Below, piece after piece: positions 20,177-59,924 of a stretch of 64,000 nucleotides of DNA (positions within the stretch are counted from its first letter, which is position 1; each line of letters opens with the position of its first letter). A program made the position numbers and the translations under genes. A model generated the notes under the pieces. It saw only the letters and a program-made list of their open reading frames with translations. It did no database searches and was not told the origin of the DNA. This DNA comes from Raoultibacter timonensis (GTDB lineage Bacteria > Actinomycetota > Coriobacteriia > Coriobacteriales > Eggerthellaceae), in the NCBI RefSeq assembly GCF_900240215.1, contig NZ_LT964679.1:2391942-2455941 (forward strand). Direction: 5' to 3'.

Positions 20177-21514
20177 CTAAGCGTTCGCTTCCGGGTTTTC
20201 GCATACGCCTATGAAGAGCGGTACGCCTTGCGACGAACGAATCTCGAACAGGAACGGTCGGTCGAGTGTGAACTCTATCTCCTTGAGGTTATCGGGGGCG
20301 GCCGACATCTCCGAAATGCCGATATCGGTGTATGCGCTCGCCTCGGCGCCGTTCTCATCCCACATGATGTAGCTTTCCTGCTTGATGTGGGAGATGTAGG
20401 CGGGCGTTGAAGTCAGCTTCGAAAAATCGGCTTCGTCGGAAAACGCCGTCTTCATGCCGAGCGATTCGAGCGGCGGAATCAGGTCGAACGAGCTTGCAAA
20501 CGTCGTCTTGGGCACCGTGTAGGTGATGTAGGCCGCATCGTCGGGATCTGCGGTGAACGCCTCTTCGAGGAGCGCTTCGTCGGAGATGATGTCGTGCGCG
20601 CTCACGCCCTCGGCCGGCAGCACGAACGACATCGTGGCCCCGCCGACGAAATCGAGGCTGGCCCGCGTATAGGTATCGGTCTGTACGAAATCGCGCGGCT
20701 TGTCGAGCCGCTGCATCATGAACTCGACCGTCACATCGCCGCTCGCGGTATGAAACGTATCCTCCCTGGTGCTGGCAGCATCGAACTGGTCCGACCAGCT
20801 GCCCTTGAAATACACCGTGTTGATGATCGACATGAGCTGATCGCTCGTCGTCTGCACCTCGGGCTCGATCGTACCGTTCGTGTTCGCGGAAATCCAATCG
20901 GCAATCGCCGCATCGGCTTCGGGCGTGCCGAACTCGACCGAGAACGGCGTCGCGTAGAACTGCTGGGTGGCAACGTCGACGAAATCCTGCTCGAACGAAT
21001 CGCCCTCGCGCATCCAGATGGAGTTGGCAAGATCGATCTTCGAGAACGGATCGCCGTAGAAGACGCGGTAGAGGTTGCCCGCCTCGAGGGGAACCTCCGA
21101 GGGGTCGGGCGCTTTGAGCACCGCGTTCATCTCGTCGGCCGTCTGCCCCGCCGCTCCCTGCGTAGCGAGTGCTAAAGCATAGTAGAGGCTGATGGGCGAA
21201 TAGGTGCTGTTCTCGGATTCTTCCCCGAGCACCGCGCTCGCGGTCTTGTACGAAAAACCCGAAAGCGATTCGACGAACTCCTCGTCGAGTGGGTTTTCGT
21301 CAAGCGTTTTCATCCACGCTTCGCCGTCGTCCTCCGATGGCGTTTGTGGAAAGGCGGGCGACGCCACGGCATACGCATCCGCCGTAGAGGCGGACGCGCC
21401 GCCGGGCGCTTCGCCGCCCGATGGGGCATCGTTCGTACCGCCCGAACACGCAGCGAGCGCCAGCGCACCTGCTAAACAGGCGATCGCGCCGATCGCGATC
21501 AAGTGTCGTTTCAT
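20177..21514 (-). CDS. Serpin-family protease inhibitor, predicted lipoprotein
   Basis: 445 residues. The N-terminus is a lipoprotein signal (MKRHLIAIGAIACLAGALAL, lipobox LAAC), so it should be anchored on the outer face of the membrane. The serpin fold is clear: NSTYSPISLYYALALATQGA, INTVYFKGSWSDQFDAAST, the breach/gate strands, and the signature LDRPFLFEIRSSQGVPLFIG at the C-terminus. The reactive-centre loop lies in DENGAEASAYTDIGISEMSA; the hinge Gly-Ala-Glu-Ala-Ser-Ala fits an inhibitory serpin, but the scissile bond and thus the target protease cannot be fixed. TATACT (21603-21608, minus strand) is a possible -10. Two genes upstream lies a secreted papain-like peptidase, which may be a partner or target. 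Confidence 0.92.
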   Translation of the reverse strand: MKRHLIAIGAIACLAGALALAACSGGTNDAPSGGEAPGGASASTADAYAVASPAFPQTPSEDDGEAWMKTLDENPLDEEFVESLSGFSYKTASAVLGEESENSTYSPISLYYALALATQGAAGQTADEMNAVLKAPDPSEVPLEAGNLYRVFYGDPFSKIDLANSIWMREGDSFEQDFVDVATQQFYATPFSVEFGTPEADAAIADWISANTNGTIEPEVQTTSDQLMSIINTVYFKGSWSDQFDAASTREDTFHTASGDVTVEFMMQRLDKPRDFVQTDTYTRASLDFVGGATMSFVLPAEGVSAHDIISDEALLEEAFTADPDDAAYITYTVPKTTFASSFDLIPPLESLGMKTAFSDEADFSKLTSTPAYISHIKQESYIMWDENGAEASAYTDIGISEMSAAPDNLKEIEFTLDRPFLFEIRSSQGVPLFIGVCENPEANA

Positions 21515-21695: not shown

Positions 21696-22451
21696 TCAGC
21701 ATGTTTCGAATACGAAGGTATCGTCGGTTGAAAGATCGGCGCAGAAGCGGTAGCCCATGACGTCGAACGCCCGCAGATCGGCGCTGTCCTCGATGCCGTT
21801 TTCGGCACACCAGCGCGCCATCGAACCGCGCGCCGCTTTCGCAGCCGTGGCCCGCTGTACGAGCCTGCCGCCCTGCATGCGGCCGAACAAGCACGTTACC
21901 ACATCCATGCCGAGCCGATCGACATACGGCAGCACCGCCTTGGCGTACTCGACCGACGCGAGGTTGACGATGAGGTCGGTCTCCTCGGCAAGCGCCCGAG
22001 CAAGCGTGTCGCCCCAATAGCCGTACACGTCCTTCGCGCCACCCACCGCCAGCTTCGCCTGCATCTCGAGCCGATACGGCACCACGGCATCGAACGGGCG
22101 CACCACGCCGTAGAACCCCGAGAGGATGCGCAGGTGTTCCTGCAGGTATTCGAGGTGGGACTCCTCCATCACCGTCGGCGCCAGATGCTGGTACTGGATG
22201 CCCTCGTACGAGAACACCGCAGGCGAGAGCGGCGCGCCTGCACCCCGCAGATCCATCGTGCGAAAGCGCTGGTAGTTGAGCTCGGTCAGCGCATCGCTCG
22301 TCTTCCAGAGCCGCTGCGCTTCGGCGTAGTCGAGCTTTCGGATCGCCCGCATGAGGACCTCCGCATGCTCGGTGAAGCGGGGCAGATCGCGCCACGCGAA
22401 CCCGTCATCGACGACGTTCATCTTCTTTGCGGGAGAAACGATGATTTTCAT
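21696..22451 (-). CDS. yaaA: YaaA-family peroxide stress protein
   Basis: 251 residues, full length for the family (UPF0246). Recognised by MKIIVSPAKKMNVVDD, the central SGFYGVVRPFDAVVPYRLEM and the C-terminal KAARGSMARWC. The E. coli member binds DNA and lowers free iron during hydrogen peroxide stress. Its ATG overlaps the stop of the upstream peptidase gene (ATGA), so it is probably translated by coupling, an unexpected pairing of a cytoplasmic stress protein with a secreted enzyme. Confidence 0.92.
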   Translation of the reverse strand: MKIIVSPAKKMNVVDDGFAWRDLPRFTEHAEVLMRAIRKLDYAEAQRLWKTSDALTELNYQRFRTMDLRGAGAPLSPAVFSYEGIQYQHLAPTVMEESHLEYLQEHLRILSGFYGVVRPFDAVVPYRLEMQAKLAVGGAKDVYGYWGDTLARALAEETDLIVNLASVEYAKAVLPYVDRLGMDVVTCLFGRMQGGRLVQRATAAKAARGSMARWCAENGIEDSADLRAFDVMGYRFCADLSTDDTFVFETC

Positions 22452-25054
22452 CGAGAGCGCTTCGCCCCCGAGCTCCGACGAACCGCATACGAGGTGATCG
22501 CCGCAGCGAAAGCCAGCCCCGCCGCAGAACCCACGACCGCCATCGGCACCGCCGCGCGATCTCCCGCCGCCGCCAAGCTTCCCACCTGGCGGTCGGGCTG
22601 ATCGACATTCGGGGTGGGCAGCGGCTCGACACCCTGGCTACCGCCGCTCGAAATCGTTACGACGCACTGAGCCGCAACGCTCATGTCGGCATCGCTTTCG
22701 GCGCGCACGGTTACGGTGCCCGGCTTGAGCGCCGTGAGCACCGTGACGGCTTCGCCGCTCGTGCTCCGGCCTGTTTCAAGTCGAACGCTCCCGACGTCTC
22801 CGGTCACCGACCAGGCCACCGTCGAAAGCGGCAGATTCTCGCTGCCTTCGAGCACGGCCGTCAATTCGACGGGCGCTTCCTCGCCCGCCGAGAGATCGAG
22901 GGAAACCTTGTTTCTGCTGAGCGAAAGCGAACGGGGATACCCCGTCACATTGGCATCCGTTCGGGCCAAATAGTTTTCGGCGCAGGCCATGGCGGCAAAA
23001 GTCCAACACGACCCGAGATCGCCCTGGTTCCTCACCGGCGTGAGCGTTCCCTCTCGGCGCAGATCGAACGAGGAAGGCAGATCGGCCGCAAGGCTCAACG
23101 GGTCGATAGCCGAATCCCCCGCCGAACCGTCGATGCGCACGCCGATGCCGCCGTAGAGCTCGGGGTTGACGGACGTTACCGCGATGCTGTCTTCGGTCCT
23201 CTCGCGCACCTCGTCTTCGCCGAGCGGATCGCGCTGGCGAAGTCCGACCTCTGCGCACGCCTCAACCTGCGCGTCGACCCCGTCGGCCACGGGGGAAGCG
23301 GCGCGTCCGTACAAGGCATCTTGTCCGCCGCCACCCGAAGCCGGATCGTCGGTATAGGCGCGAATACTCGGGTAGAATCCCTGCTCGCCCACATCGGTAA
23401 CCGTCCCGCCCTCGTCGATGAACGCCCGTCCGCTCACCTCGACGATACCGCTGATCTCGCCGGGCACGTTCGCGGATACGCCCATCCGAACCTTGTCGCC
23501 CTGCGCTGCGGGCCGCACGGTCACGTCGATGCGAAACGCATCCCCCGGCTCGATGGCCGCGGCATCGCCGAGATGGACGGTGTAGTAGCCGCCATAGCGT
23601 TTCTCGCCGGTGGCCACGGTTTCGGTCTGCCCGTTCGTCGTGACCGCTATCTCGTAGCGCGCCGCCGATCCGATCGAAAACGAAACGGCCCTGAGCGTTT
23701 CGCGTTCCGATTGCCGGTTCACGAAAACCTCCGACGCAGTGAATGCTTCGTCGCTGGTCCAGAACAGGTTCGTTCCGTACGGGTCGTTGAGGTACTGATG
23801 GTTGTAGCTTTCGGATGAATCCCCTGCCATGAACACCGTCGGATTGTTCGTGCCGATAAAGGCGTCTTCGTACGAAACGTAAAAGTACCCGCCCTCCCCG
23901 GCATCGTCGCCCCACGAGTTCTTGCAGATGAGCGCGCCGTCGTTGTGCGGCTTAGGAGTGGATGCGCCGGTATACCCGAAGCGGTCCAGCGCATAGGGAT
24001 TGCCCTCGAAGCGATCTTTGGAATACGTATCGTCCCATCCGACCACCGTGACGATGTGGCCGCCGTCGTACGATACGCCGTCCTCTACAGCCTGGTACTC
24101 GAAATCCCGCTTGTCGACGAACAGATGCGTGTTGTCCTGCGTAGCGTAGCAGAGCGCCCACAGCACGTAGATGTCGGCAGCGCCGTACGTCATGACGGCC
24201 GCTTTCAAATCATCGAGGAAGCTCGCGCTCTGCCCCGAAGGCAGATACAGCGCATTCTGCACATGGTAGGGCGATTGCGTGCCCAGATCGCGGTATTCGA
24301 AAGGACCGGCAGCGCTATACGGATCGTCGGATTCCGCTACAGGGCCCGCCCACTGCGAGAAATACGCCTGCGACATGAGAAAATGACCGCCTCCGTTAAC
24401 GCCGTAATCCCATGCAAAGCCCGAAGCGGAGTCGTTGAGCGCCGTAAGCATGTTCATTTCCGAAAGGTCGAGAGACGACACGGAGGCGGGTTCCATATGG
24501 CGCTGCATATCGAGCGTATAGGGGTTCGCCGGGTCGAACGCCCCGTCTAGGCTTTCGACTACCACGTAGTAGCGGCCGTCACCGACGGCGCAGCGAATGC
24601 TCTGCAAGCCCGATTCGAACGACGATTCGCGCAGCGTCACACCGCTTTCGTCGCAGAGCCGCATCCGATAGGCGGCTTGAACCGGCGAGGTAAGCATCAA
24701 AGCCACCTCACCCGTATCTTCGGGGTCGATCGCGTACCAATCGACATCGTCGGCCGAATGGACGGTCGCCTCCACCCGGGCGGGAAATCCCGTATCGGTA
24801 GCCTGCGCAGCCGTATCGTTCGGCTCGAAACGGTCGGGCGCTGCAGCATGCCCCCCTTCGGCCAAGCGGGTTTCTTCCAGCGGCGCAACGGGTTTCAGGG
24901 CATCTTGCGGAAGATCTTCCCCGCTCGACGGCTCATCGGCAAAGGCGCCCCTGGGGCCAACGCCCGCGACGGGACACGCCAGCAGAAATGCGAGGGCAAG
25001 CGCCAGCAGCAAGACGAGGGAGCGCCTGGCAGCCCCGATACGCATCGTAGTCAT
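22448..25054 (-). CDS. Secreted papain-like (C1) cysteine peptidase with permuted catalytic order
   Basis: 868 residues, exported and membrane-anchored: signal peptide at 1-40, C-terminal helix (PMAVVGSAAGLAFAAAITSY) and basic tail. Parts in order: PPC-like domain starting DRFEPNDTAAQATD; the segment that normally follows the catalytic cysteine (SSLDLSEMNML, GGGHFLMSQAYFSQWAGPV); catalytic His333 (DGGHIVTVVGWDD) and Asn379 (ICKNSWG); a lectin-like beta domain; then, at residues about 665-715, the segment that normally comes first, LPSSFDLRREGTLTPVRNQG with Cys683 (GSCWTFA); a Big2-like domain; the membrane helix. All catalytic residues are present but the Cys half lies 350 residues after the His half. 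GGAGG precedes the ATG at 25054 by nine bases. Confidence 0.85.
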   Translation of the reverse strand: MTTMRIGAARRSLVLLLALALAFLLACPVAGVGPRGAFADEPSSGEDLPQDALKPVAPLEETRLAEGGHAAAPDRFEPNDTAAQATDTGFPARVEATVHSADDVDWYAIDPEDTGEVALMLTSPVQAAYRMRLCDESGVTLRESSFESGLQSIRCAVGDGRYYVVVESLDGAFDPANPYTLDMQRHMEPASVSSLDLSEMNMLTALNDSASGFAWDYGVNGGGHFLMSQAYFSQWAGPVAESDDPYSAAGPFEYRDLGTQSPYHVQNALYLPSGQSASFLDDLKAAVMTYGAADIYVLWALCYATQDNTHLFVDKRDFEYQAVEDGVSYDGGHIVTVVGWDDTYSKDRFEGNPYALDRFGYTGASTPKPHNDGALICKNSWGDDAGEGGYFYVSYEDAFIGTNNPTVFMAGDSSESYNHQYLNDPYGTNLFWTSDEAFTASEVFVNRQSERETLRAVSFSIGSAARYEIAVTTNGQTETVATGEKRYGGYYTVHLGDAAAIEPGDAFRIDVTVRPAAQGDKVRMGVSANVPGEISGIVEVSGRAFIDEGGTVTDVGEQGFYPSIRAYTDDPASGGGGQDALYGRAASPVADGVDAQVEACAEVGLRQRDPLGEDEVRERTEDSIAVTSVNPELYGGIGVRIDGSAGDSAIDPLSLAADLPSSFDLRREGTLTPVRNQGDLGSCWTFAAMACAENYLARTDANVTGYPRSLSLSRNKVSLDLSAGEEAPVELTAVLEGSENLPLSTVAWSVTGDVGSVRLETGRSTSGEAVTVLTALKPGTVTVRAESDADMSVAAQCVVTISSGGSQGVEPLPTPNVDQPDRQVGSLAAAGDRAAVPMAVVGSAAGLAFAAAITSYAVRRSSGAKRSR

Positions 25055-25136
25055 GATCACGAACCTCCAGCCTTTCGCGGTCTTCGGTGCGCATCAGTAT
25101 ACCAAGCCAAGCGCTGCGCGCAATCGCCCGAAACCC

Positions 25137-26330
25137 CTACTGGTACCTGAGCGACTCGACCGGATCGAGCTTTGCCGCACGGCGCGCCGGATAATACCCG
25201 AACACGACGCCGATGAGCACGCAGACGCCGACGGCTCCGAGGATGACGGGCAGCGATATGGCCGGCACGACCGTCATGCCGGGCTGCATCGCACCGACCG
25301 CCGCACCGAGGCCCCATGCGCCGAGCAGCCCCATGACGATGCCGATGACGCCCCCCATCACGCACAGCATGATCGCCTCGAGCAAAAACTGCTTCGTGAT
25401 GTCGCGCCGCCTGGCACCGAGCGATTTACGCAGACCGATCTCGCGAATGCGCTCCGTCACGTTGGTCAGCATCATGTTCATGATACCCACACCGCCGACG
25501 AAGAGCGAGATGGACGCCACCGATCCCATAAGCAGCGAGAACGAAGCCATGGTCGTCTCCATCTCCTTGATGATAGAGTCGAAGGAGAACACGTACACAT
25601 CGTCTTCGCCCGCCAAACCGAAGTAACGCGCCACCGTAGAAGTGGTGGTGGCAACGACCGATTCGATATCGGCACCCTCTCGAACAAAGCCGGTGATCTG
25701 CAGGTAGCCGTCCGTGACGCCGAGGCGCTGCACGGCCGTCGAATACGGAACGTAGATCATCGTCCCGTAGGACACGAGCGTCGACGACTGGAGCACGCCG
25801 ATGATCTGGTAGTCGTCGTTTCCGATATGGATGGTCTGCCCGACCGCCTGCGCATCGACGCTGCCGAACACCTCTTTGACCGAGTTCTGATCGATCACCG
25901 CGTAGCGGGCGCCGTTCTTCTCCTCGCTCTCGGTAAACAGCCTGCCCGATTCGAGGTTCGAGCCGTTTGCGATAAAATACTCGGGCTTCGCGCAGAAGAT
26001 CGTGGCGTTTTCAACGGTGGTGGTCCCCGTGCCGACCGAAGTGCCGATCTGCGTCGACCCCGTGATGAACTCGTAATCGGGCATCATCTGCTCAAGTGCA
26101 TCGAGATCGTCGAACGTGATCCCCTGCGGTGCATTCACGCTGATCGCAACCTGACGGGCCTGAGCGAATCCCAGCTCGCCCATGAGCGTGTTCTGTATGC
26201 CCCCGATGAGCGAAGTCATGGCGATAACGGCCGATATGCCGATCACGATGCCGAGGATCGTAAGAAACGACCGCCCCTTGTTCGCCGCAAGCGCATACCA
26301 CGTTTCGTAGAGGAGATCGCCGAGCTTCAT
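25137..26330 (-). CDS. MacB-like ABC transporter permease
   Basis: 397 residues. One helix near the N-terminus (FLTILGIVIGISAVIAMTSL), a large extracytoplasmic MacB_PCD domain (about 45-270), then three C-terminal helices with the FtsX-family core GGVGIMNMMLTNVTERIREI and GLRKSLGARRRDI. Together with the ATPase and the adaptor upstream it forms a tripartite-type exporter as in Gram-positive YknXYZ; such systems move peptides, antibiotics or lipids, and the cargo here is unknown. The start at 26330 overlaps the ATPase stop (ATGA). Confidence 0.92.
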   Translation of the reverse strand: MKLGDLLYETWYALAANKGRSFLTILGIVIGISAVIAMTSLIGGIQNTLMGELGFAQARQVAISVNAPQGITFDDLDALEQMMPDYEFITGSTQIGTSVGTGTTTVENATIFCAKPEYFIANGSNLESGRLFTESEEKNGARYAVIDQNSVKEVFGSVDAQAVGQTIHIGNDDYQIIGVLQSSTLVSYGTMIYVPYSTAVQRLGVTDGYLQITGFVREGADIESVVATTTSTVARYFGLAGEDDVYVFSFDSIIKEMETTMASFSLLMGSVASISLFVGGVGIMNMMLTNVTERIREIGLRKSLGARRRDITKQFLLEAIMLCVMGGVIGIVMGLLGAWGLGAAVGAMQPGMTVVPAISLPVILGAVGVCVLIGVVFGYYPARRAAKLDPVESLRYQ

Positions 26331-27124
26331 CGCACACCGCCTCGCTGATGGCCGGCCTGTCCACAAGGAGACGCCCCGGGTCCTGCTATGCTGTCGTGCC
26401 CGACGGAGGCCGGCATCGGGTCGGTATCTCGGGTATGCACCGGACAGTCTTTCCCCGCAAGCTTTCCGTCACGTATGTGGATGGCGCGGTCGGCATGGGC
26501 CGCCACATCCGGCTCGTGCGTGATGAGGACGATGGTCTTGCCCTGATCGCGCAGCCCTTTGAACGTCGCAAGCACCATCTCGCCCGTGGCCGTATCGAGG
26601 TTGCCCGTCGGCTCGTCGGCCAGAATGAGAGCAGGATCGTTGACGAGCGCCCGAGCGATGGCGACGCGTTGCATTTGGCCGCCCGACAGCTCGTTGCTGC
26701 GATGGTCGAACAAGGCTTCGTCGAGGTATACGCTCCTCAGCGCGGATCGCGCCCGCTCGGCACGCTCCTTCTTCGGGCATGCGGTGTACATGAGCGGCAT
26801 CATCGCGTTGCGCAGCACCGTCGAACGCGGCAGCAGGTTGAACGACTGGAACACGAACCCGATGCGCGTTGCGCGAATTTCCGCGAGTTCGTCTTCATTG
26901 TAGGCCGCCACATCGACCCCCTCGAGAAAATACGATCCCGTCGTGGGCGTGTCGAGGCAGCCCAGGATGTTCATGAGCGTCGATTTGCCCGACCCCGAGG
27001 GGCCCATGATGGCAAGGAACTCCCCTTGCTCAACCGAGAACGAGACGCCTCGCAAGGCATGGGTCAACCCCGATGCCCCCTCGTATATCTTGTGGATGTC
27101 GCGTGCTTCGAGGACGAGAGCCAT
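26327..27124 (-). CDS. MacB/LolD-type ABC transporter ATP-binding protein
   Basis: 265 residues. Walker [11 protein letters not shown]-loop [14 protein letters not shown], signature [19 protein letters not shown], Walker [14 protein letters not shown] and H-loop IVLITHEPD are all intact. The last 40 residues after the H-loop region ([17 protein letters not shown] onward) go beyond the usual 225-residue core and look unstructured. The gene starts five bases after the adaptor stop and is coupled to the permease. Confidence 0.94.
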
Positions 27125-27129
27125 AGCCG

Positions 27130-28566
27130 CTACCCCACGACTGTTTCAGCGGTAGCCTCCATCGAACCGGATGCGCTCCCACCCGCATCGGCCCCGTATC
27201 CCATCGATCCGCTCGCGCCAACGTCGCCGACCATCATGATCTCGTCGCCTTCCGCAAGAGCACCCTTGACGGCCATGGTCAGCCCGTTCGAAGCGAGTAT
27301 CTCAACGGCGCGCTCCTCCATGTTCGCAGGATCTTCGGGATCGACCACGTAAACGAACCCCTCGGTTGCCGACATGGTCTGCACGGCCGATACCGGCACC
27401 ATCAAGGCGTTCTCGATTTTCTGGGATTCGATCGATGCCTTCGCCGTCATGCCCGGTTTCAAACGCGGATCGGGCTCGGTTATGAGCAGATCGACCGCAT
27501 ACGTAACCGTACCCGTATACCCCATGTTCGCGCCGTCCGACGCCCCGGTGTTCATCGTGGCGATGCGGCTCACCGTACCCGTCAGCGAAAGATCGGGGAT
27601 GGCCGAAAACGTGAGCACGGCTTCCTGCCCTGTCTCGATTTTGAGAATGTCGATCTCGTTAACCTCGACGGACACCGTCATCTGAGAAAGGTCGGCGATC
27701 TGCATCGGCGACGCCGCACCTGACGCATTCGCCAGCGCCTTGCCCGGTTCGATGTTGACCGACACGACGCTTCCGTCTATCGCAGCGACCACCGTGCGCT
27801 TTTCCGCCTTGGCAACCGCATCGTCGTAGGCCGATTGCGCGTTCGCGAGAGCGGTTTGGGCGCTTGCAAGCGAAAGCTCCGCCTGTTTGATGGCGGAATC
27901 GGCTTGGGCGACATCGAACGTCGGAGCAGCGGAACCCCCTACCGCTTCGGCTTCATCGGCAACCGCCGAAGCCGATGCTGCTGCGTTGAGGCCCGCCTGC
28001 TTCGAGCGGTACGCCTCATCAACCGCCAGCTGCGCCTGGGAAACGCCGTTGCTCGCCTCGTTGATGCCCTGCTGCGCCTGGACGACCGCCTTGTCGAGAT
28101 CGTCGTTAACGATCGTGTACAGCGTTTGGCCTGCGGTTACCGTATCGCCTTCCGAGACAAACACTTCACCGACCAGCCCGTCCACCTCAGGCGTCGCGCT
28201 CACCGACGAAACCGGCGTGAGCTTGCCTGAAGCCGATACGGCATCGGAAAACGTACCCCTCTCGACGAACGCGGTCGGAAGCGGCGCATCATCGGTCGGA
28301 CCCGCGGCCGACGAAGCGAAAAACCAGGTAAGACCGCCCGCGATGGCGATCACGAGAACCGTGCATACGATAGCGATGGTGATGGCCTTCTTGCGCTTCG
28401 CCTTCTTGCGCTTCTCCTTCAGGCTGCTGTACGCCCGCATATCGGCGAGAGCATCCGCATCGACGGCTGCTGGGACGATGGGATCGTATGCGTTGTATCC
28501 GTACCCCGCCGCCGGCATCCGATGCGGATCGGCTGAGTCGTTCGGGATTTCCTCATTGCGCGTCAC
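27130..28566 (-). CDS. MacA/HlyD-type efflux adaptor (membrane fusion protein)
   Basis: 478 residues, starting at a GTG (28566) with GGAGG five bases upstream; the longer open frame upstream has no matching sequence. The N-terminus is cytoplasmic, with a Lys/Arg-rich block (KEKRKKAKRKKA) before a single helix (ITIAIVCTVLVIAIAGGLTW). Outside follow a biotinyl-lipoyl-like half (VDGLVGEVFVSEGDTVTAGQ), an Ala-rich coiled-coil hairpin (about 215-320), the second lipoyl half (AIDGSVVSVNIEPGKAL) and beta-barrel domains (RLKPGMTAKASIES). The tail is rich in Gly, Ser and Met. It links the ABC pair to the exterior. Confidence 0.9.
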   Translation of the reverse strand: MTRNEEIPNDSADPHRMPAAGYGYNAYDPIVPAAVDADALADMRAYSSLKEKRKKAKRKKAITIAIVCTVLVIAIAGGLTWFFASSAAGPTDDAPLPTAFVERGTFSDAVSASGKLTPVSSVSATPEVDGLVGEVFVSEGDTVTAGQTLYTIVNDDLDKAVVQAQQGINEASNGVSQAQLAVDEAYRSKQAGLNAAASASAVADEAEAVGGSAAPTFDVAQADSAIKQAELSLASAQTALANAQSAYDDAVAKAEKRTVVAAIDGSVVSVNIEPGKALANASGAASPMQIADLSQMTVSVEVNEIDILKIETGQEAVLTFSAIPDLSLTGTVSRIATMNTGASDGANMGYTGTVTYAVDLLITEPDPRLKPGMTAKASIESQKIENALMVPVSAVQTMSATEGFVYVVDPEDPANMEERAVEILASNGLTMAVKGALAEGDEIMMVGDVGASGSMGYGADAGGSASGSMEATAETVVG

Positions 28567-28668
28567 AGCGGCCTCCAATTCTCTCGGAAACCAGCATACG
28601 GGGTGAGCGGTCAAAAGTACAGCACGACGATCAGGTATCGCAAGCTTGGAAAGAATACGGTCGCAGAA

Positions 28669-28701
28669 AAGCCCCTCGCGGTAAGGATCGGCGAGGGGCT
28701 T
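28669..28701 (-). terminator. Rho-independent terminator of the catalase gene
   Basis: Eleven-base arms AAGCCCCTCGC and GCGAGGGGCTT; on the minus strand the stem is followed by TTTTCT. It lies about 140 bp past the catalase stop. Confidence 0.8.
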
Positions 28702-28843
28702 ATCGGAAAGGAGGCCTTTGGGAAGAGAAGGCCCGAATCGGCTAGCGGCGGCCGAACCGAGGGAGTCGAGTTCGGCCGCGTATCGAGATGGTGCTGCGCG
28801 GTTGCCGGAAGCCGCCGGCAAACACGCGCAGCAGCGGTTTCGG

Positions 28844-30388
28844 CTACTTCATCGCGCCGCCCTTTTTGAGGGCCGGAACGTTTTGCCCGGTTGCGGCCAT
28901 GCGCTCTTCATGCGACATGCCCGCAAGTTCGATCACCCGGTCGACCGGCAATCCGAGCGCCTCGGCCAAGCGGGTTCCGTACTCCGGATCGGCCTTGTAG
29001 CAGTGCGCCGCATGGCGCAGCTTGATGTTATCGGTGCACGGGGCAATGTCGACAGCCGTATTGGAAACGAGCAACGCACGCTTGTCTTCGGTCATGAGGC
29101 GGTACAGATCGCCCGGCTGGTAAAAGGTATCGTCGGTCGGATCGTCCTTCGGATCCCACGCATCCATCGGACCGAACAGATCAAGCGGCGGTTCGGCCGC
29201 ATCGGCCTGCTGCTGCCATTGCCCGTAGGAGTTCGGCTCGTAGCCGATCGTGCCGCCGAAGTTGCCATCGGTGCGCATCTGGCCATCGCGATGGAATTCC
29301 GCATAGGGGCATTGCGGTCGATTGACCGGAATATGGTTATGATTCACGCCGAGACGGTAGCGCTGCGCATCGCCGTAAGCGAACAGGCGGCCTTGGAGCA
29401 GCTTGTCGGGCGAAAGCCCGATGCCCGGCACGAGGTGCGTCGGCGCAAAAGCCGCCTGCTCTACTTCCGCAAAGTAGTTCTCGGGATTACGGTTGAGCTC
29501 GAGGGTGCCCACCTCGATGAGCGGGAACTCCTTCTGGCTCCACGTTTTCGTGATGTCAAACGGGTTTTCCTTGTAGTTCTTGGCCGTTTCCTCATCCATA
29601 ACCTGAATGCAAAACTTCCATTGGGGAAAGTCGCCCTGGGCGATGGCGTTGAACAGATCGCGTTGATGGCTCTCGCGGTCCTTGGCTATGATGGCCTCGG
29701 CTTCTTCGTTCGAAAGGTTCTCGATGCCCTGCTGGGTCTTGAGGTGGAACTTCACCCACGTGCGCTTGTTGTCTTTGTCGAGGAAGCTGTAGGTATGGCT
29801 GCCGAACCCGTGCATGTGGCGGTAGCTCTTCGGGATGCCGCGATCCGACATGACGATGGTCACCTGGTGGAGCGCCTCGGGCAAGCTCGACCAGAAATCC
29901 CAGTTTGACTGCGGCGAGTGCATGTTCGTATGGGGATCGCGCTTGACAACGTGGTTGAGGTCGATGAACTTCTTGGGATCGCGCAGGAAGAACACTGGCG
30001 TGTTGTTGCCGACAAGATCCCAGTTACCCTCAGAGGTGTAGAACTTGATGGCGAAACCGCGGATATCGCGCTCGGCATCCGCCGCACCGCGCTCGCCCGC
30101 CACGGTGGAGAAGCGAACGAATACCTCGGTTTCGGTTCCGGGCTGAAACACCGCGGCCTTCGTGTACCGGCTGACGTCGCCCGTTACCCTGAATGTGCCG
30201 TACGCGCCCGAACCCTTCGCATGCATACGGCGTTCGGGAATGACCTCGCGATCGAAGTGCGCGAGCTTCTCGATCATCCAGTTATCTTGGAGCATCATGG
30301 GGCCGCGTTCGCCTGCGGTCAACGTGTTCTGGTTATCGGCGACGGGCGCGCCGTTTTCGCTGTAGAGTTTGGTGGTGTCCTGATCCAT
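28844..30388 (-). CDS. katA: Monofunctional heme catalase
   Basis: 514 residues, a clade 3-size catalase. The distal site is visible in [15 protein letters not shown] (active-site His) with [13 protein letters not shown] (Asn), and the proximal heme ligand in [14 protein letters not shown] (Tyr). It dismutates hydrogen peroxide in the cytoplasm, protecting an anaerobe during oxygen exposure. AAGGAGGT precedes the ATG at 30388; a Met 12 residues upstream lacks a binding site. The gene stands alone between two terminators. An AT-rich partial palindrome 120 bp upstream could be a peroxide-responsive operator. Confidence 0.96.
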
Positions 30389-30506
30389 GGGTTGGACCTC
30401 CTTGTTGCCAGTCGGCTTGCGCAACGCGGCTCGTGCCGTTTTGTCGACGCAGCCTCTAACCGTCCTTTGGTTGCTTGGTCCAGTGTATCAGGATTGATGC
30501 CTCTTA

Positions 30507-58103: not shown

Positions 58104-58194
58104 TGTAGCACGAAACGGGGTCGGCTATCGACACGAAACGGGGCTCGATGAGATACTATACTTTCTTGCCTCCCGATTGGTCCAAGGAGGCGCA

Positions 58195-59924
58195 TTGCAC
58201 CTGTCCGCTGCCCGCATGTCGAGGCGCTCGCACGCCGCACGCCTTGCCCTCGCCGTGATGATCGCCCTGCTCTTCCTCTTTTCGAGCGCACCGCGCGCTG
58301 CCTTTGCCGATTTGACGGGTGATCCCGCACGCGAACCAGCCCTGCCCTCTTCGTTCGATCTGCACGCCGTGCCCGCCGAGGATGGCGGCGCAGTCAACTA
58401 CCTCACACCCGTTCGCACCCAAACCGAGGACATCTGCTGGGCATACGCTTCGCTCGCCTCGCTCTAATCGTCCATCCTGCGCACCAGCGGCACCGCCGTC
58501 GAGTTTTCCCCGTGGCACCTTGCATACTTCACCGTTGCGGGCACCGAGGAGAAAGAAGCCGCCGGACTCTTTTTCATGGATCCCCCGCTGTACGCCGGGG
58601 GCACCGAGCCCCACCTCGTAGCCGCAAGCCTCGCTGCCGGCAAAGGAGCAGCCCCCGTTGCAGCGGGAACCGATGCGGCATACGATCCCATGGACGAAAG
58701 CCTGCGCTACCGAAGCGAATACCGCCTTACCGACGCCGCGTTCCTCTCGGCACGGGCGGGATCGTTCTGTGCGGGAGCCTCGGGCGATCAGGCCATGGCC
58801 GATGCCAAGCGCCGCATCATGGGTTCCGGGCCCATCGTGGCCGAATTTGCCAGTTCGATGTACAACGGATTTTACGACTTCGACTACGCATCGTATTGCA
58901 ACACGGCAGAGCCGTGGAACGCGCCCGACCACTACGTCAGCATCGTCGGCTGGGACGATGCGTTTCCCCGCGAGCACTTCAGCGCCGCACACCAACCGCA
59001 GGCAGACGGCGCATGGCTTGTGAAGAGCTCCTGGGGAACCGGCGTCCAGAACGATGGTTACTGCTGGATCTCCTACGAAGACGAGACGCTGCGCTTGGTA
59101 GCGGGATTCGACGGCGAACCGTCCCGCCAGGGAGAAACCGTCTACCAGTACGACGAACAGGGATGGCTCGATTCGGTCGCCCTCGGCAGCCAGACGACCG
59201 CTTACATGGCGAACGTGTTCACGGCAGACAGCGCCGAGCTGCTCGACCGCGCGATGCTCTGCACGACCGATCGGGGTACTGCCTGCGCCATCGAGGTCTA
59301 CCGCTCGGTCGACGAGGGAAATGCAGACCCGACGACGGGCGAGCTCGCCGCGCGCCAGACGGCAACGTTCGGATTGCCCGGCTACCACACGGTTTCGCTC
59401 GAAACCCCCGTGAAGCTCGACCCGAACGAGTGCTTTTCGATCGCGGTCAAGCTCGACAATCCGACGTACCGCTGCGCCATCCCCGTCGAAGGCATGGTGC
59501 TCACGGATCCCGAGCTGCCCGACGACACCGCGCCGCAGCATATGGGATACGACGCATCGGGAGCCCGCGAGATCAGCTACCTCCCGCCGATGGCGTAACG
59601 TGGAGCGATGCTGCGGGATCAACGTGGGAGGGCGTTGCCTCGCGCTGCTACAAGACAAACGTCTGCCTCAAAGCGCTCACAGTGCCGCGCGAAGCAGACG
59701 GCGGCAACAGCGAAGGCGGTGAGCCGAATCAGGATCACGATCAGCCGTCCGAGATGGACGGGAAGCCGACGTCCGGCGAGGGGTCGATCCGGGCAGGCGC
59801 CTCGCTTCCCGCAGTCGGCGACGAATCGCCTGCCGCTCTGGCGCTCGGAGCGGCGGCCGCAAGCGCGCTGCTTGCTCTCGTCGCACGATCGAAGGCGGCG
59901 AACCGCCGCTCTCATCGTGGCTAG
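58195..59924 (+). pseudogene. Secreted papain-like (C1) cysteine peptidase, disrupted by a stop codon and a frameshift
   Basis: Intact form would be about 575 residues. It begins with a TTG (58195, AAGGAGG four bases before) or ATG (58216) and a signal peptide. Order is the normal one: LPSSFDLHAVPA, Cys motif EDICWAYASLASL, then a TAA (58465-58467) where SLESSIL would be expected, i.e. GAA to TAA. The frame continues with His in NAPDHYVSIVGWDD and Asn in LVKSSWG (Ser in place of Asn in the usual KNSWG), through a beta domain. Near 59590 the frame shifts by one base, and the remainder, VTWSDAAGSTWEG onward, runs to a C-terminal membrane helix ending at 59924. Two lesions make a sequencing error unlikely. 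Confidence 0.8.

Follow-up and report, generated by a model that had tools for sequence, protein, structure and literature searches.

The window, i.e., the whole stretch of 64,000 nucleotides of Raoultibacter timonensis considered here, carries on its reverse strand a gene whose product combines the two halves of a papain-like (C1) peptidase domain in an order opposite to the usual one (Table 1). The gene corresponds to a single uninterrupted open reading frame with two possible starts; because a GGAGG motif sits 9 nt before the ATG, the numbering based on this codon (His333, Cys683) is preferred to the one based on the GTG, where each residue number is higher by two. From the N-terminus onwards, the protein exhibits (i) a putative signal, (ii) a PPC-like domain, (iii) the His/Asn part of the papain domain, (iv) a lectin-like domain, (v) a linker of about 90 residues, (vi) the Gln/Cys segment of the papain domain, (vii) an Ig-like domain, and (viii) a likely C-terminal anchor. 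The lectin-like domain (PF18560, residues 423-570 in GTG numbering) directly follows the papain body. Pfam searches of this protein found neither the cell-wall repeat PF04122 nor the PPC family, the latter matching two of the relatives. All four residues expected in the active site, namely Gln, Cys, His and Asn, are present. The G+C content of the gene region (61-65%) is like that of the remainder of the window, and the repeats found at the junctions of the gene are only short and chance-like.

Table 1. Features of the protease gene and of its product in the window
Feature	Position	Strand	Basis and remarks
Permuted C1 protease gene	22448..25054	-	868 aa from ATG 25054; longer option from GTG at 25060
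N-terminal signal peptide region	24935..25054	-	Putative; by eye
PPC-like domain	24491..24847	-	HMM made from this segment
His/Asn part of papain domain	23795..24478	-	Starts SSLDLSEMNML; Pfam, phmmer, relatives, model comparison
Catalytic His333 codon	24056..24058	-	Reading of translated ORF; residue tally in aligned units
Catalytic Asn379 codon	23918..23920	-	Reading of translated ORF; residue tally in aligned units
Lectin-like domain PF18560	23351..23794	-	Pfam
Linker	23087..23350	-	About 88 residues; low confidence and probably disordered in model; candidate internal propeptide
Gln/Cys segment of papain domain	22946..23086	-	PF00112 positions 1-43; Pfam, segment-only sequence search
Oxyanion Gln677 codon	23024..23026	-	Reading of translated ORF; residue tally in aligned units
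Catalytic Cys683 codon	23006..23008	-	Reading of translated ORF; residue tally in aligned units
Ig-like domain after Cys segment	22643..22915	-	HMM made from it; weak Big_1 match
C-terminal hydrophobic stretch and basic tail	22451..22570	-	Likely surface anchor; by eye

Between the catalase and yaaA genes, the region 22448-30424 (-) holds HlyD-like, ABC ATPase and MacB-like genes together with the protease gene. In the sister species (genome G086), where a genome search returned no match to the protease, the catalase gene and the yaaA-serpin-M20 order are kept, other DNA lies in between, and MacAB is found elsewhere; this comparison shows a variable locus only. Two genes downstream of the protease gene, a serpin gene (20177-21514, -) encodes a lipoprotein-like protein (PF00079, E 5e-69). 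It was considered as a partner of the protease, but no such link is claimed because the serpin occurs in the sister species devoid of the protease and is absent from the six other genomes encoding a permuted protease.

Order of the papain halves

Peptidases of family C1A usually present their catalytic residues in the order Cys, His, Asn, which is not the order of the window protein. The sequence-only reading had placed His333 and Asn379 first and Gln677 and Cys683 later, and these positions are indeed found in the translated frame, with Pfam and phmmer in agreement. PF00112 is reported in two stretches (E 7e-15), the best one matching profile positions 1-43 to residues 661-702 (GTG numbering), and each papain half is present once, the split being located just past the Cys helix, at PF00112 positions 43-46. 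In a phmmer search against solved structures, the top match is Cwp84 of Clostridioides difficile: residues 196-499 align to PDB entry 4d59 (E 8e-16), and the Cys segment of Cwp84 aligns as a separate piece to residues 671-699, the pieces thus appearing in reversed order. Used as sole query, the Cys segment retrieves papains as well as cathepsins (E 2e-9 at best), a likeness which, judged from sequence, is not due to chance.

The displaced part, which may have been shifted in one piece or may stem from duplication followed by loss, amounts to about the first 45 positions of PF00112. For the permuted proteins described below, the best Pfam stretches covering the Cys piece (seven in all) span from positions 1-43 to positions 2-48, and a body piece reported by Pfam begins at position 46; in profile coordinates, the Cys pieces and the body piece are complementary halves. 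In canonical relatives, the Cys helix runs straight into a DLSE or DFSE motif. As had been noticed on first reading, the corresponding SSLDLSEMNML opens the body of the window protein right behind the PPC-like domain. A paralogue with the normal order had likewise been pointed out and does exist about 35 kb from the protease gene (58156-59598, +); it is broken by an in-frame stop within the Cys helix and exhibits Ser at the expected Asn position. Given the reversed order, the window protein is therefore described as a permuted derivative and not as an ordinary member of the C1A (Cwp84-type) peptidases.

Relatives with the permuted order and their descent

Searches were carried out in overlapping sets of 138, 397, 297, 295, 341 and 246 genomes, and the domain order was checked in the loci returned (up to 30 per search) as well as in regions fetched by hand. 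Eight further distinct proteins with the same order were found in six further genomes, i.e., nine proteins in seven genomes with the window included; considering the loci checked, the count of seven genomes is a minimum and provides no rate. In Claveliimonas bilis (complete-genome record), a protein of 1502 aa is colinear with residues 76-814 of the window protein at 42% identity. Acetanaerobacterium elongatum possesses two adjacent permuted genes, and the remaining proteins are encoded in genomes G340, G367 (two), G1169 and G1241. The six permuted relatives compared with the window protein are 25-47% identical to it. Matches were obtained in 186 of 397 genomes in the family of Claveliimonas and in 6 of 246 in the phylum of the window organism, with different cut-offs, from which we infer that the two organisms belong to different phyla. 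Viral contigs returned ten relatives with A5, none with P0001 and three with A6, none of them with the permuted order; three plasmid and four phage records showed partial matches, none reaching 80% coverage.

With HMMs built here, seven of the nine permuted proteins share the order PPC, body, lectin, Cys, Ig-like, and both Acetanaerobacterium proteins match neither the PPC nor the Ig HMM. None of the canonical units is matched by these two HMMs, the PPC one also matching a protein without papain domain (L043). Further domains vary: the G340 protein has a 5'-nucleotidase, those of C. bilis, G1169 and G1241 have chitobiase-like domains, and both G367 proteins end in choline-binding-type repeats. 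The permuted unit looks like a cassette that may move between surface proteins. Of note, the N-terminal part of the Claveliimonas protein (L032:4033-8538) contains an HELQH motif, zincin-like by eye, with no match to a Pfam metallopeptidase family, and two group II intron maturase genes (L032:9477-12582) lie close to its gene.

Once ten duplicate loci had been discarded, along with units that were cut off or missed a domain, the set comprised 170 distinct complete units, 161 canonical and 9 permuted. Gln, Cys and His are conserved in all nine permuted proteins and Asn in eight, the ninth having Asp, to be compared with 161, 160, 161 and 157 of the 161 canonical units for Gln, Cys, His and Asn, respectively. 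Scored against canonical profiles, the permuted proteins reach 62-72 bits for the Cys segment (canonical median 81), 103-170 bits for the body (median 193) and 47-110 bits for the lectin domain (median 128).

For phylogenetic analysis, every unit was rearranged to one common order, and the resulting trees are unrooted. The permuted group received SH-aLRT values of 82 with 7 permuted proteins among 105 rows and of 93 with 9 among 126 rows. A careful tree was then built from 66 rows, with roughly one in two canonical rows retained and seven long branches left out; here, the permuted proteins form one clade (97/96), recovered in 96% of 200 bootstrap trees. The permuted order is best read as derived, with a single origin; on an unrooted tree, it is taken as such because the canonical order is widely spread. 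Two tandem proteins of the window's own family (L205:3325-7116 and L206:3096-7844; 1264 and 1583 aa) carry two complete Cys-body-lectin units in one polypeptide. As such proteins exist, a permutation through duplication and loss is possible, where they would represent a plausible intermediate, although they are not the nearest relatives.

Predicted structure and competing explanations

Two AlphaFold models were considered. The first one (residues 65-812; 28-row alignment A4, where some fragment tails are probably misaligned) includes the flanking domains and leaves the Cys segment unplaced, most of it at a pLDDT of about 25-41. The second one covers the core alone, from residue 192 to 716 in GTG numbering; based on cleaned alignment rows, it reaches a pTM of 0.69 and a mean pLDDT of 63.2; a helix (494-509) begins exactly at the Cys, the blocks of the Cys segment have pLDDT values of 72-93, and the linker is of very low confidence, with weak stretches of the left half at 10-33 and 47-73. 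Residues 1-382 of this model match residues 133-497 of Cwp84 (Z 20.8, 311 residues, 3.6 A), the match starting after the Cys116 helix. Weaker matches, at Z 5.7-5.8, align the heavy chain of cathepsin B, from its residue 49/50 on, with the start of the model; they lie below Z 8, a range where, according to the tool, no more than a common arrangement may be involved. Foldseek matches to other beta-rich proteins reflect single-domain likeness and were set aside. The structural part of the sequence-only reading finds support in the core model, which folds the Cys helix and resembles Cwp84 elsewhere, but not in the longer construct; the modelling is supportive yet mixed, and the papain fold of the permuted protein is a predicted one.

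Considering these elements together, the window protein is probably a C1A protease of the Cwp84 type that carries a lectin-like domain and has undergone natural circular permutation; it would be exported, surface-anchored and probably active. The permutation had been proposed from the sequence and is supported by relatives with the same order. The new chain ends would lie in the loop past the Cys helix, and the old ones, one behind the lectin-like domain and the other ahead of the mature N-terminal strand, would be bridged by the flexible linker. The C-terminal Gln/Cys segment would then fold back to join the papain domain in its left half, placing Cys683 opposite His333 and Asn379 and Gln677 in the oxyanion hole. 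Peptide hydrolysis would presumably follow the ordinary thiol-imidazolium route, the substrate possibly being a protein of the cell surface, of the host or of the diet.

Two other explanations are unlikely, to a similar degree. In the first, molecules would form a swapped dimer or a chain in which the Cys segment of one completes the active site of the next. The long flexible linker would permit such swapping, and the structure prediction folded one chain only; nevertheless, the single-chain core model folds the Cys segment with fair confidence, and the linker has the length needed to connect both parts inside the same molecule. In the second, the protein would be a catalytically dead adhesin, whose role would rest with the PPC, lectin-like and Ig domains while the papain pieces are mere leftovers, in line with profile scores under those of canonical members, the Asp replacing Asn in one permuted protein and the unplaced Cys segment of the first model. 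The presence of Gln, Cys and His in nine out of nine proteins argues against such decay, even though six relatives are only 25-47% identical to the window protein. An ancestral permuted order from which the usual one derives, as an unrooted tree would allow, is very improbable, with 161 of the 170 units canonical and spread over several phyla and the permuted units in one clade. Misassembly, a chimera or a gene-prediction artefact, which the absence of the gene from the sister species and the nearby broken paralogue might suggest, is refuted by the same order in six other genomes, including the colinear C. bilis protein; the one open frame also speaks against it.

Known papain-like systems and significance

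Cwp84 (C1A with a lectin-like domain; PDB 4ci7 and 4d59) is the closest known enzyme, sharing with the window protein both papain halves, the lectin-like domain straight after the body, and Gln, Cys and His. Its order is propeptide, Cys, His, lectin-like domain and cell-wall repeats (PMC4089489), so that Cys precedes His in Cwp84 whereas Cys comes last in the window protein. In the permuted NlpC/P60-type families C92 and LRAT, in PPPDE (C97) and in LupA, all distinct from the family considered here, papain-like folds have their Cys helix shifted towards the C-terminus (PMC10318531; PMC3142127). The window protein is like C92, LRAT and PPPDE in that the Cys helix comes after the His strand, but its lectin-like domain lies between the halves, a feature not mentioned for C92, LRAT, PPPDE or LupA in the relevant portions of these two sources, and the Pfam models of C92, LRAT and PPPDE find no match in it at E up to 1. 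The 2023 classification reports helix permutations in C97, C92, LRAT, LupA and cluster VI and describes the papain/cathepsin cluster as retaining canonical structures (PMC10318531). No permuted C1 enzyme was found in the open-access literature searched, as judged from titles and abstract beginnings, and the text of PMC10380794, devoted to the origins of the papain family, does not contain "permut".

Mature cathepsin B exists in a two-chain form (PMC10082344), its natural chain break being located at roughly the position where the window protein is split. Unlike the window protein, it follows the usual gene order and has its light chain at the N-terminus. By analogy, the linker may take the place of the propeptide, and a cut there would yield a two-chain enzyme. 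That the linker is itself a propeptide is not claimed: it bears no clear resemblance to canonical pre-Cys regions, and the profile matches are weak and end in an LPxxFD stretch. When the linkers, with their last residues removed, were compared with six canonical pre-Cys regions, shuffled sequences attained the best score of seven of the nine linkers in 123-197 of 300 cases, that of L033_6169 in 28 and that of L108 in 2. A more far-reaching and tentative possibility is that this is the first natural circular permutation in the papain family proper, with the propeptide position turned into an internal linker: activation might cut the enzyme in two, so that a wall-anchored stub keeps the catalytic Cys while the PPC-lectin part retains His/Asn, and activity might be switched by release or re-pairing of the chains.

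In profile-based annotation, permuted proteins appear as two fragments, and more of them may thus be overlooked. Together with its unpermuted relatives, a permuted C1 clade would permit a direct comparison of the two topologies with respect to folding, zymogen control and the fixation of a permutation.
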